DNA of 64,000 nt from BD2-11 clade cluster bacterium bin43 (lineage in GTDB: Bacteria > Gemmatimonadota > Gemmatimonadetes > Longimicrobiales > Gaopeijiaceae), in the NCBI GenBank assembly GCA_002238605.1, contig MPMR01000012.1, positions 62,001-126,000 on the forward strand, in the 5' to 3' direction. Position 1 is the stretch's first letter. Every line of letters begins with the position of its first letter. The notes beneath the pieces are model-generated. The model was not told where the DNA came from, ran no database searches, and was given only the letters and a program-made list of their open reading frames with translations. The position numbers and the translations under genes were made by a program. Shown piece after piece: positions 59,944-64,000 of the stretch.

Positions 59944-60825
59944 ATGAAACCCGATCGCTGGCTCGCCGTCGTCGCCGGCGTACCCGATTCCGCCACGACC
60001 GGTCTGGTGGCCGCGGAACTCGTCCGCGCGGGTGCGCGTGCCGCGGTTGAGCAGGCGGACGGCACGCTGGTCACCCATTTCACGCCCCCCGCCGACGTCC
60101 CGGCGTTCCTGGCCGCCCTCGGCAGCGAACTGAACCGGGCGGCGGGCCACACGGTCGATCTGCGCTGGCACTGGCAGCCGCACGAGGAATGGGCGGAGAC
60201 CTGGAGGCGAGGGCTCGGTCCCACGCGGGCCAGCCGCCGCATCACCGTGGCGCCGACCTGGGACCTCCCGCCGGAGCCGGATGAAGGCGTGCTGATCGTC
60301 CTCGATCCCGGTGTGGCGTTCGGCACCGCCGGCCACGCCTCGACCCGATGTGCCCTGCGGCTGCTCGACGCCGCGATTCGCCCGGGGGTCGCCATTGCGG
60401 ACGTGGGAACGGGTTCCGGCATTCTCGCCATCGCCGCGGCCAGGCTCGGCGCCGGGCGCGTGCTGGCTGTGGACAACGATCCCATGGCCTGCGCAGCGGC
60501 CCTCGACAACGTGGACGTCAACCGCGCAGGCGCGGTGGTCGACGTCCAGGAGCGTGAGGTGTCGCCCGACTGGCTCGCAGCTCACCACCCTCTGGACGGC
60601 GTGGCCGCGAACATCGAGAGCGGGGTGCTGACCGCTCTCCTGCCCGGGTTCGCCGCCGCCCTGGCGCCCGGGGGCTGGCTCCTGGTGTCGGGTTTGCTCG
60701 CGGAAGAATCAGGCGACTTCGCCTACGAGGCCGCGCCCTGGGGTTTCCGTCTGCGGGACGACGATGCCGAAGACGGCTGGTGGGCGGGGACCTTCCGACT
60801 GGTTCCCGGACCCTCGGACGGGTAG
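59944..60825 (+). CDS. prmA: ribosomal protein L11 methyltransferase
   Basis: PrmA trimethylates ribosomal protein L11. The C-terminal SAM domain shows IADVGTGSGILAIAAARLGAGRVLAVDNDPMACAAALDNV, and the PrmA-specific loop reads LDPGVAFGTAGHASTRCALRLL (usually FGTGTHPTT). The later NxxNI-like site appears as AANIESGVL. 293 residues and location after dnaJ are both typical (dnaJ-prmA). ATG 59944 is used. Its last 103 bases are overlapped on the opposite strand by another gene. Confidence 0.92.
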   Translation: MKPDRWLAVVAGVPDSATTGLVAAELVRAGARAAVEQADGTLVTHFTPPADVPAFLAALGSELNRAAGHTVDLRWHWQPHEEWAETWRRGLGPTRASRRITVAPTWDLPPEPDEGVLIVLDPGVAFGTAGHASTRCALRLLDAAIRPGVAIADVGTGSGILAIAAARLGAGRVLAVDNDPMACAAALDNVDVNRAGAVVDVQEREVSPDWLAAHHPLDGVAANIESGVLTALLPGFAAALAPGGWLLVSGLLAEESGDFAYEAAPWGFRLRDDDAEDGWWAGTFRLVPGPSDG

Positions 60826-61286
60826 GCGAACCACAGCCCCGCCGCGTTGCGTTGTCTCTGCAGCCGCCGGTGCTCCCTCAGCAGTCGGAACCAGCGGTTG
60901 ACGGCGGACGGCGACTTCGCGTCCAGACTGCGGGCAAGGCAGGCCAGCGTTCGGTGGTTCCAGCGGACCAGAGGGTCGCGGTGTGGAAACCGGCGATCGT
61001 TGGTGTCAAGCAGGACCACCCAGGGGCAGGGTGTGAGATATTGCTCCGAGAGCACCTTCTCGTAGGGCCCCGGCGACTGGTGCAGGTTGCCGGCGGTCCA
61101 CGCTCCGCGCATGGGATCGAGGAGGCGATACCGGTCGGGGTGGTGGAGCACGGCCTCGACCACCTGTGCAGCCGCGGGTTCCGCATCGCCCTCCCGCCCG
61201 AGCCTGCGCATGAGCGTGTCCAGGCTGGCGGCGATCATTCCGGTCTCCGACATCACCCGGTTGATTCGCTCCGCGATCTCGTTCAA
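60723..61286 (-). CDS. unrecognised 187-residue protein
   Basis: A - strand gene not matching any family I recognise. Its start is TTG (61284-61286) with GGAGG 6 bases upstream, strong evidence of translation. The N-terminal half looks helical and may form a winged-helix-like fold (IAERINRVMSETGMIAASLDTLMRRLG, then PDRYRLLDP). The middle has TPCPWVVLLDTNDRR, and the C-terminus is very basic. The last 103 bases overlap prmA in the opposite direction, so the end may be looser than the family norm or the two genes have collided. No relation to the upstream housekeeping genes is apparent. Confidence 0.6.
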   Translation of the reverse strand: MNEIAERINRVMSETGMIAASLDTLMRRLGREGDAEPAAAQVVEAVLHHPDRYRLLDPMRGAWTAGNLHQSPGPYEKVLSEQYLTPCPWVVLLDTNDRRFPHRDPLVRWNHRTLACLARSLDAKSPSAVNRWFRLLREHRRLQRQRNAAGLWFAYPSEGPGTSRKVPAHQPSSASSSRRRKPQGAAS

Positions 61287-61891
61287 CCAGAGCCTCCGTC
61301 CATTCGAGGAAAGTCAGGGAGTCACCGGCGGATTCCCGGAATGAGTCCCAGATAGGTTAGGCTCTGGAGGCGGGCTCTCCCATGGCTCGATGGGAAGAAA
61401 TGTTGTAAAGTGTTGATAGCAATGTTATTACGATGTATATGGTTAACTTGGTTCCCTAACCAGTTCCCGTTTCTTGGACTGGATACTGATCGACGCCTTC
61501 GGACGCTCTCGGATGTGCCATCCGGGTGCACTAGGTCGAAGAAGCCCACTCTTGGGGAGGTACCCGGCCGGCTTTCTCGTGGCAAGCGGGTGCGGCCCGT
61601 GACCGGGATTCCTCCACGATAGAAACTCATCCTTGCAAATTACAGCGGTGGGTTGACAGCGCGCACCGGTCCGCAGCTGGCTCTTCTTGCCCATCGGAGG
61701 CTGCGAGCTCTCTCGGCTCTCTTTCCCCGACTTGATTAGCTCGCTTTCCCGGCGGATACCGCAAGGCACGCCGCCGCTACCTGCTCCGGCGTCGCTTCGC
61801 CGTCGTCGGCCTTGAGTCTTTTCCGGCCTTCTCGGCTTCCTCGCTCATGGAGTGGTGACCGGGTTACAACAAGCACTTCCCAGGGAGGGGG
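61287..61891. other. 605-base region without a convincing gene
   Basis: No open frame here has a ribosome site or recognisable protein. The stretch 61395-61450 is strikingly AT-rich against the GC-rich background and contains a promoter-like pair. GGTTA/TAACC around 61441-61461 can form a short hairpin. The rest (61640-61850) contains only short frames, including one in the - direction starting near 61848 that breaks after 23 codons. It may be the scar of an insertion or the control region of something beyond recognition. Confidence 0.6.
61413..61441 (+). promoter_or_regulatory. strong sigma70-like promoter in the AT-rich patch
   Basis: TTGATA (61413-61418) and TATATG (61436-61441) are separated by exactly 17 bases. 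Matches are 5 of 6 and 4 of 6. It is the best-formed promoter in the accessory end of the window and points rightward, yet no coding gene follows on the + strand for 1.4 kb. It could drive a small RNA or be a relic. Confidence 0.5.
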
Positions 61892-62284
61892 CTAACCTCC
61901 GAAGGACTTCTCGGCGATCATCTTCATGGTCTCCGCAATGGCTTGAGTCGTGAGTGTACTCTTCGCCTTCGCGAGCATCGCCTTGGCTGACTCCAACAGC
62001 TTCCCGTCTCGACTCTCGGCAGCACGAACATACTCTTGGCCACGAGCGGTAAGGCCGTAGATGTGCCCGACCACTATGGATCGCTCTCCGCTCAAGTAGC
62101 CCTCCAGCTCGATGTCGGCCCGAATGAAGCCGCCATCGGCACACAGATAGAGGTGGTAATCCACCTCCTGCTGGGCGACTCCTAGCGTCCGCGCGATATC
62201 TTGCTCCGTTGCCCGAGAAGGAAAGACGTCTTCGTCCGCCAGGAATTGCATGATCCTGAGCGATGTGTCTGGATTCTCTCTCAT
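61892..62284 (-). CDS. small winged-helix-like protein (DUF2513-like)
   Basis: A 130-residue protein. The first 80 residues look like a winged helix (TEQDIARTLGVAQQEVDYHLYLCADGGFI), ending in VVGHIYGLTARGQEYV. The last 40 residues are a helical stretch (SAKAMLAKAKSTLTTQAIAETMKMIAEKSFGG). The arrangement resembles the DUF2513/YjcQ group of small proteins often found in prophages and islands, but similarity is weak. AAGGA lies about 12 bases before ATG 62284. A DNA-binding role is inferred from shape only. It is adjacent to a decayed transposase. Confidence 0.65.
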   Translation of the reverse strand: MRENPDTSLRIMQFLADEDVFPSRATEQDIARTLGVAQQEVDYHLYLCADGGFIRADIELEGYLSGERSIVVGHIYGLTARGQEYVRAAESRDGKLLESAKAMLAKAKSTLTTQAIAETMKMIAEKSFGG

Positions 62285-62367
62285 TGCGGGGGCTATTCCT
62301 TAGTTCAAGGGGTGTGATGGAGAGAAGCGTCGGGAGCTGCTTGCGATTAGCATATGGTCGGTCAGCG

Positions 62368-62704
62368 TCAAGGGGAAGCACTGAAGTGAAGCCGGGGGTG
62401 AATGTGCTTGGAGCCGAGGCCCGAAACTTTACGTTGCGCTGCCGAGTCTTCCGTGTCGGCGATCAGGTCCCGGTACATGAGCCGCCGGCCGACCATTCCC
62501 GGCCACGACATGCTCCATCTGCTGGATTGGGTCGAGATCGTGGATGTTGTGACGGCCGCAGGACTCGGCGACGTAGCGGTGCGGGTGCTTCGGGGCAGCC
62601 GGTGGAAGGTTCGCTCTGTAGGCTCGTTTCGGCATCGACCACGGTTCGACGCCGTTCGTGTAGATCTTCTCGCTCTCCAGGTAGGGGACGTACTCCCGCC
62701 TCAT
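62368..62704 (-). pseudogene. decayed ISXO2/IS1595-type transposase, C-terminal part
   Basis: Pieces of the catalytic-domain C-terminus appear in different frames on the - strand. One frame gives YTNGVEPWSMPKRAYRA and PKHPHRYVAE, then GRHNIHDLDPIQQMEHVVAG. Between the first two, a shifted frame gives TFHRL, bounded by a +1 and a compensating -1 base. After VVAG a further shift (near 62495) gives MVGRRLMYRDLIADTEDSA, the usual C-terminal block of ISXO2-like transposases, down to a TGA at 62368-62370. The N-terminal zinc-ribbon and DDE residues are missing. At least three indels make it a pseudogene unless sequencing error is involved. Confidence 0.75.
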
Positions 62705-62898
62705 TCCATCCCTCTTCCCAGACGGGAACACAATAGGCCTCCAAGGACCTGCTTGGAGCCCCGGAGGACTCGCGGCCACGGACTTGAGGCTTTACCCTGT
62801 GTTCGCCCGGTTGATCGCCAGCGCGCAAACACCTTATCGTTTTTCGACCTCAATCTCGCATCCAAGACTCTGATTCCGGGGCCGACGGGAGACCGCCA

Positions 62899-64000
62899 TT
62901 GAGCCGCTTCAAGGACGCCGAGCCCATCTTGGCCGCAGCCGAACGCTGGAAGCGGCGGTGCCTCTTGGGTGAGAAGTCACTGTTTGCGGAGCGGTCCCTT
63001 TGGACCCGCGAGGGCTTTGACGAACTGAGCCGACTGTATGTGGAGAGCATTGAAGACGGTTTGCCCGCATCCTCGTGGCTGAGTGAACTTGAGCGCACGG
63101 TCAAGCCCGGGTCGCCAGATGCCAGTTGCCTTTGGGCGGAAATGACATGGGTGTACCGCCTGATCCACCACTCGCGATCTATGGGGGCGGCCAAGAAGCG
63201 CGCCCGAATCGCCGAGATCTGGAATTGGTCGGGGCGAGACTTTCCAGCAGATCACGACCTGTTGAGCGACTCCGTGCTCGGAGCAGGCGTCGCCAACCCG
63301 GGTGCGGCGTACAACACATTGGCGTGGAAAGAATTCCGCTTCTTCGCGTCCGTCATGCTCCGATGGGTCTCGCTGGAGATTGACGAGCGCGAATCCCTCC
63401 TCGACCACCCATGGGATTTCGCGTCATGGCTGGATGCTGGAGAGTTTACTGAGAATCGGATGTTCCGCCACATACTGCTCTTCCTTCTCTTTCCCGACGA
63501 GTTCGAACCGATCTCGACAGGCAAGCATAAGGCCAAGATCGTGATCACCCTGTACGGTGGCAACTGGATGGAACTCACCGATGACGTTGCGATCGACCGA
63601 GCCGTCCTTTCGATCCGTCGGCGCCTCGAAAGTGAGTATCCCGATGAGATTCACTTCTTCCGCTCACCGGTCAAGGAACTCTGGCAGGAAGAGCGCCGCA
63701 GTCCCGACGGGAGCGGCCATGCAGGCGGCAGCCCGACCAGCGGAAAAAACGATGAGGATCCAAGACATCGCAGCTACACCGCGACGCAAGCCCTGCAAGA
63801 CCTCTTCATTGATCCCGGCCATTTTGCCCGCCTTGTCCAGGCCATCAAGTCCGGTAAAAACCTGATCCTCCAAGGGCCGCCCGGCACCGGGAAGACCTTC
63901 ATAGCCCGCCGAATCGCTTGGTCCCTGATTGGCCGCCAGGACTCCGACCCGATCGAGATGGTCCAGTTCCACCAGTCCTACGCCTACGAGGATTTCGTAG
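62899..64000 (+). CDS. McrB-type AAA+ ATPase, 5' part (runs off the window)
   Basis: The frame is open from an in-frame stop at 62812-62814 to the last base, so the gene continues beyond the window. TTG 62899 is the only start codon in between, with GGGAG about 7 bases before it. The first 300 residues (SRFKDAEPILAAAERWKRRC...) are an unassigned N-terminal region. Then NLILQGPPGTGKTFIARRIA provides Walker A at 326-333, followed by PIEMVQFHQSYAYEDFV, the hallmark opening of McrB GTPase-like domains. McrB proteins with a nuclease partner McrC restrict modified foreign DNA. McrC would be downstream and is not visible. Confidence 0.85.
   Translation, partial: MSRFKDAEPILAAAERWKRRCLLGEKSLFAERSLWTREGFDELSRLYVESIEDGLPASSWLSELERTVKPGSPDASCLWAEMTWVYRLIHHSRSMGAAKKRARIAEIWNWSGRDFPADHDLLSDSVLGAGVANPGAAYNTLAWKEFRFFASVMLRWVSLEIDERESLLDHPWDFASWLDAGEFTENRMFRHILLFLLFPDEFEPISTGKHKAKIVITLYGGNWMELTDDVAIDRAVLSIRRRLESEYPDEIHFFRSPVKELWQEERRSPDGSGHAGGSPTSGKNDEDPRHRSYTATQALQDLFIDPGHFARLVQAIKSGKNLILQGPPGTGKTFIARRIAWSLIGRQDSDPIEMVQFHQSYAYEDFV

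Follow-up and report, generated by a model that had tools for sequence, protein, structure and literature searches.

A probable integrative element beside mutS2 that carries mcrBC, and the apparently exchanged N-terminal module of its McrB

In type I restriction, the target-recognition domain of HsdS is exchanged, and the motor and the nuclease are kept. The choice of which modified DNA a cell turns away falls to type IV enzymes. In the E. coli enzyme, McrB recognises modified DNA through its N-terminus, translocation is powered by GTP hydrolysis, and McrC makes the cut (PMC3874153, PMC7680126, PMC6624300). Related forms include EVE-McrB and YTH-McrB (PMC7641849) and the CoCoNuT branch of McrBC, which has an NxD GTPase motif and coiled coils (PMC11090510), and in metagenomes of Ircinia sponges mcrBC has been reported to be enriched in some hosts (PMC9531527). 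Here we describe an mcrBC pair at the right end of a stretch of 64,000 nucleotides (hereafter the window; G000:C18:62001-126000), whose contig runs 4338 bases past the window end, by comparison with ten congeners, all of the genomes being metagenome-assembled genomes (MAGs). We consider it quite probable that an integrative element inserted beside mutS2 brought mcrBC with it, and that the N-terminal module of its McrB has been exchanged by recombination.

The mcrBC locus and its gene content

The original prediction saw, to the right of prmA, the edge of an accessory, likely defence-associated island made up of a reversed gene, an AT-rich patch, a DUF2513-like gene, a transposase wreck and an McrB-type ATPase at the very end. 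Every one of these items exists, and the features of the region are as follows (window coordinates).

60723-61286, minus strand: conserved gene of unknown function that shares about 100 bases with the 3' end of prmA; left neighbour of the island
61381-61394, plus strand: left core site CATGGCTCGATGGG, 14 bp, with the break in congener synteny directly 3' of it
61395-61891, no strand: lower-GC left end of the element, in which no ORF makes a convincing gene; the inserts in G001 and G003 have homologous left ends
61892-62284, minus strand: DUF2513-like small protein (Pfam DUF2513, E=5.5e-5, below the curated cut-off; phrog_585, E=4e-8)
about 62440-62668, minus strand: frameshifted C-terminal remnant of an IS1595/ISXO2-type transposase (tblastn E=2e-15 against a full copy on contig C13 of the same genome)
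62899-64656, plus strand: mcrB, crossing the window end at 64000
62899-63783, plus strand: N-terminal module of McrB, residues 1-295, predicted to be all-helical, of no known family, with its nearest relatives in Caldilineaceae
63784-64000 (continuing to 64656), plus strand: start of the AAA+ GTPase motor of McrB, by homology to E. coli McrB
64653-65729, same contig, outside the window: mcrC, intact, its start overlapping the mcrB stop
68069-68338, minus strand, outside the window: C-terminal fragment of a P4-type integrase (last 89 residues; NCBIfam E=3e-11)

The reversed gene had been counted as part of the island. It was found in 10 of 10 congeners, nine of which have the complete gene and one a copy truncated by a contig end, with protein identities of 80-84% across them and nucleotide changes mostly at third codon positions, and it matched no family in Pfam, NCBIfam, PADLOC or PHROG. 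Because it is present in all ten congeners with this third-position bias, it is a real gene that belongs to the backbone and not to the island.

By homology, mcrB and mcrC are a type IV (McrBC) restriction module of a known kind, situated on an integrative element, and the two genes are predicted to restrict DNA. The motor (residues ~290-585) matches E. coli McrB with E=6e-89 and has an intact Walker A motif (GPPGTGKT), Walker B motif (VFIIDE) and NxxD signature (MNTAD), and McrC aligns over its whole length with E. coli McrC (E=3e-59), keeping the PD-(D/E)xK nuclease motif as D248, D261 and K263 (D..DxK). Relatives of this mcrBC at about 90% were found in four congeners. Elsewhere in the congeners, the pair lies beside an AbiU2-like HEPN gene (G003; L067:9354-10172) and beside an integrase and a PD-(D/E)XK gene (G007; L069:891-4012); the pair therefore moves between different islands. 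The mcrB of G165 (L104:682-2283) is a broken copy of 534 residues, in which an early stop after the middle domain leaves no motor.

From the left, the element consists of the gene-less end, the DUF2513-like gene, the IS1595 remnant, mcrB, mcrC, 85-bp repeats, three small open reading frames (ORFs) that matched no family and the integrase end. The gene-less patch has about 57-60% GC and the DNA preceding it 70-74%; GC-based gene picking, which included spurious ORFs, was used only for choosing genes for Pfam scans. The DUF2513-like protein probably carries a helix-turn-helix. The integrase fragment would belong to the enzyme that moved the element. It shares 80% identity with an integrase encoded on contig C8, and a search of this genome for the missing part of the gene yielded four other P4-type integrases and no obvious partner end. 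A hairpin-rich repeat of about 85 bp lies to the right of mcrC (window 65857-65944; L004:5858-5945), with a similar element at L004:6195-6295; nine copies occur in the genome at 72-100% identity, and the repeat folds far better than shuffled sequences (z -4.3). It is possibly a MITE- or REP-like family.

The integration site before mutS2

Where does the island begin? The congeners align with our sequence across prmA and the reversed gene, and this alignment stops at about 61395; in G004, the contig ends to the left of the border. The predicted island edge is thus real, but it starts at 61381-61395, about 100 bp further right than had been proposed. Six congeners (G002, G005, G006, G007, G008 and G009) have an empty site, at which the sequence passes straight through a core of CATGGCCGGATGGG or CATGGCCGAATGGG into mutS2, and G008, G009 and G002 are collinear over 20 kb beyond it. 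In the genome studied here, mutS2 is found near the beginning of another contig, C58, which re-aligns with the empty sites from base 286; the re-aligned part starts with a second copy of the core, CATGGCCGAATGGG, ahead of mutS2. The left and right cores, which lie on two contigs, have 12 of 14 bases in common. The insertion and the duplication of its core are shown by computational comparison. The region downstream of prmA and the sequence to the right of 64000 had both been named as places where the prediction could be checked: the insert is absent in the six congeners, with mutS2 directly next, and beyond 64000 stand the mcrC nuclease gene and then the integrase fragment, and not housekeeping genes, as expected of an accessory defence island.

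The site is occupied in four genomes, that is, our own, G001, G003 and G010. The last three diverge at the same core, their left ends are homologous to that of our element, and the right ends of G003 and G010 have beside the core an arm, TGGACGCCTATGGAYGAYACTGGA, that is also found at our right end. G003 and G010 are identical at the insert and were counted as one event. Because inserts are found at the same core in these genomes, the core before mutS2 is a recurrent integration site, or hotspot, for a family of related elements, and cargo at this site can be compared across the genus. The two assemblies G003 and G010 (L055, L060), treated as separate species, show no difference over 1823 bases here and have other contigs in common, and one may be a near-duplicate of the other. 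The G001 insert, although at the same core, differs in its cargo, which includes a DUF6884 protein (L056:4260-5711).

The assembled parts of our element amount to at least 6.9 kb on its left side and about 0.28 kb on its right; its middle is unassembled and its two cores lie apart on separate contigs. The target is intergenic, before mutS2, and no tRNA gene was found near the site. A 48-base stretch that ends with the core (window 61347-61394) is better conserved than the intergenic DNA just upstream, and may serve the reversed gene as promoter or operator. Rfam gave no match in the core region, which folds no better than shuffled sequences (z 0.4 to 0.5), and therefore we claim no RNA there.

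Might IS elements and gene drift instead have built up the region as a composite of independent insertions, with no single integrase-borne element behind it? The IS1595 remnant inside it, the dispersed hairpin repeats and the unassembled middle would fit such an origin; however, we regard a composite as unlikely, since in four genomes the break falls on one and the same base next to the 14-bp core, the elements have homologous ends at either side, and an integrase stands at the contig end.

Under the single-element explanation that we favour, an integrative element would enter site-specifically between the conserved gene of unknown function and mutS2, its entry would duplicate the short core site, and the type IV restriction module mcrB-mcrC would be brought in as cargo. 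By homology, the N-terminal module of McrB would bind foreign DNA bearing some base modification, McrB would form a GTP-hydrolysing ring that moves along the DNA, and the ring would activate the McrC nuclease, leading to a cut. Recombination at the junction with the motor would exchange the N-terminal module, and the motor and nuclease would stay with the local lineage.

Mosaic ancestry of McrB

McrB is mosaic in its ancestry, with an apparently exchanged N-terminus and with a motor and McrC of the local lineage. Over the same aligned columns, our McrB is 57-59% identical to those of three congeners in the N-terminus (~290 residues) and 89-92% in the motor, with 87-91% for McrC; against two MAGs of Caldilineaceae (Chloroflexota), the values are 77-79%, 77-78% and 82%, respectively. 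In the tree of the N-terminus, our McrB groups with Caldilineaceae (support 100/99), and in that of the motor with the congeners and G154 (support 99/96). Approximately unbiased (AU) tests rejected the opposite grouping for the N-terminus (p=3.3e-4 with 9 taxa, 1.3e-6 with 23 taxa) and for the motor plus McrC (p=3.7e-4), and for the motor alone only marginally (p=0.045); the groupings to be tested were chosen with the identities already known, which makes these p-values somewhat optimistic. The trees are compatible with transfer of the N-terminus in either direction.

G154, which belongs to another genus of the same family, is a second, separate and stronger chimera. Its motor is 87-90% identical to the clade of our McrB, and its N-terminus groups with G002b, G009b, G399 and others at 60-67%, the motors of which are only 55-57% identical to its own. 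A change-point scan placed the breakpoints of both proteins in one common linker that leads into the motor, ours at residue 297, within YTATQALQDLF, and that of G154 at residue 443, just before GTYTAEQAQQDLF; each exceeded all of its 5000 permutations. In the literature that we searched, which consisted mostly of papers available without subscription, we found no prior report of module exchange in McrB.

How might this pattern have arisen without exchange? If the McrB N-terminus simply evolved much faster, as in an arms race, the mosaic look would reflect rate variation, and most of the pairs compared do show a larger divergence in the N-terminus than in the motor, which is what a recognition domain should show. 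However, rate variation cannot explain why the N-terminus has 77-79% identity with another phylum and 57-59% with congeners when the motor shows the reverse order; the AU tests also reject it, and in G154 the N-terminus is more alike to a clade whose motors are only 55-57% identical to its own. We consider this reading strongly disfavoured and quite improbable. That the right part of contig C18 is foreign DNA joined to a host contig by faulty binning or assembly is very improbable indeed: these are MAG data and the contig ends inside the element, but the join coincides exactly with the core that is used in other assemblies too, the corresponding right junction is present in this genome, and mcrBC relatives at about 90% are found in four congeners.

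Exchange of the N-terminus would most likely change the target of McrB. Natural chimeras with a common breakpoint provide matched pairs, in which a nearly identical motor and nuclease are combined with different N-termini, and what the module reads therefore becomes testable by swapping. Mobile defence cargo of this kind is known, and the hotspot that holds it is newly delimited; the repeated exchange of an undescribed McrB N-terminal module is the part worth keeping. The suggestion that new systems may be found in such an island holds in so far as this exchanged module is unusual, but the McrBC is otherwise classical.

The N-terminal module and comparison with known systems

Residues 1-295 of McrB matched no Pfam, NCBIfam, PADLOC or PHROG family, including DUF3578, EVE and YTH, and a profile search with the module returned no significant PDB sequence. 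AlphaFold2 modelled it as all-helical, with a mean pLDDT of 72 and higher values over most of residues 10-180; a fold search with this model gave no Foldseek match at E < 0.001, and VIA gave Z of at most 3.0. In a sample of 395 genomes of the phylum, 30 contain the module. It is also present in MAGs whose labels name other phyla, and query coverage suggests that plasmids of Rhodococcus, Ketogulonicigenium and Sinorhizobium carry it too. In some proteins (L121, L122), the same module stands ahead of a KAP-type P-loop NTPase and not of McrB. In longer McrBs, module and motor are separated by a further domain of about 150-170 residues, which is absent from our McrB and from those of the congeners and Caldilineaceae; an EVE-like identity for this domain, suggested by motif likeness by eye only, was set aside, since Pfam and PDB gave no match and the AlphaFold2 model had a mean pLDDT of 40.

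The N-terminal module is a putative reader of modified DNA. We put forward, tentatively, the wider proposal that McrBC is re-targeted here by whole-module exchange at one linker, even across phyla, and that the module, which is fused to other NTPases as well, may be a previously undescribed, all-helical reader of modified DNA.

How does this locus compare with described systems? With McrBC of E. coli K-12, it has in common a homologous AAA+ GTPase motor with NxxD, a homologous McrC and a two-gene operon with mcrB first; the E. coli McrB, however, has DUF3578/ADAM, whereas our module is longer, all-helical and without a family match. CoCoNuT systems likewise contain relatives of McrB and McrC, but our McrB has NTAD (NxxD) in place of the NxD motif that marks them. 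Like EVE-McrB and YTH-McrB, our protein is an McrB fused to a variable N-terminal specificity region; it differs in having no middle domain, and its longer relatives gave no EVE match. Integrase-borne islands with defence cargo resemble our element in their integrase, duplicated short core, restriction cargo and reuse of one site, whereas the target here is intergenic before mutS2, with no tRNA found nearby. Finally, although a single module at the N-terminus of a type IV motor protein is concerned here and the change of specificity is putative, our McrB resembles the exchange seen in HsdS in that the recognition part is swapped and the motor and nuclease are kept.
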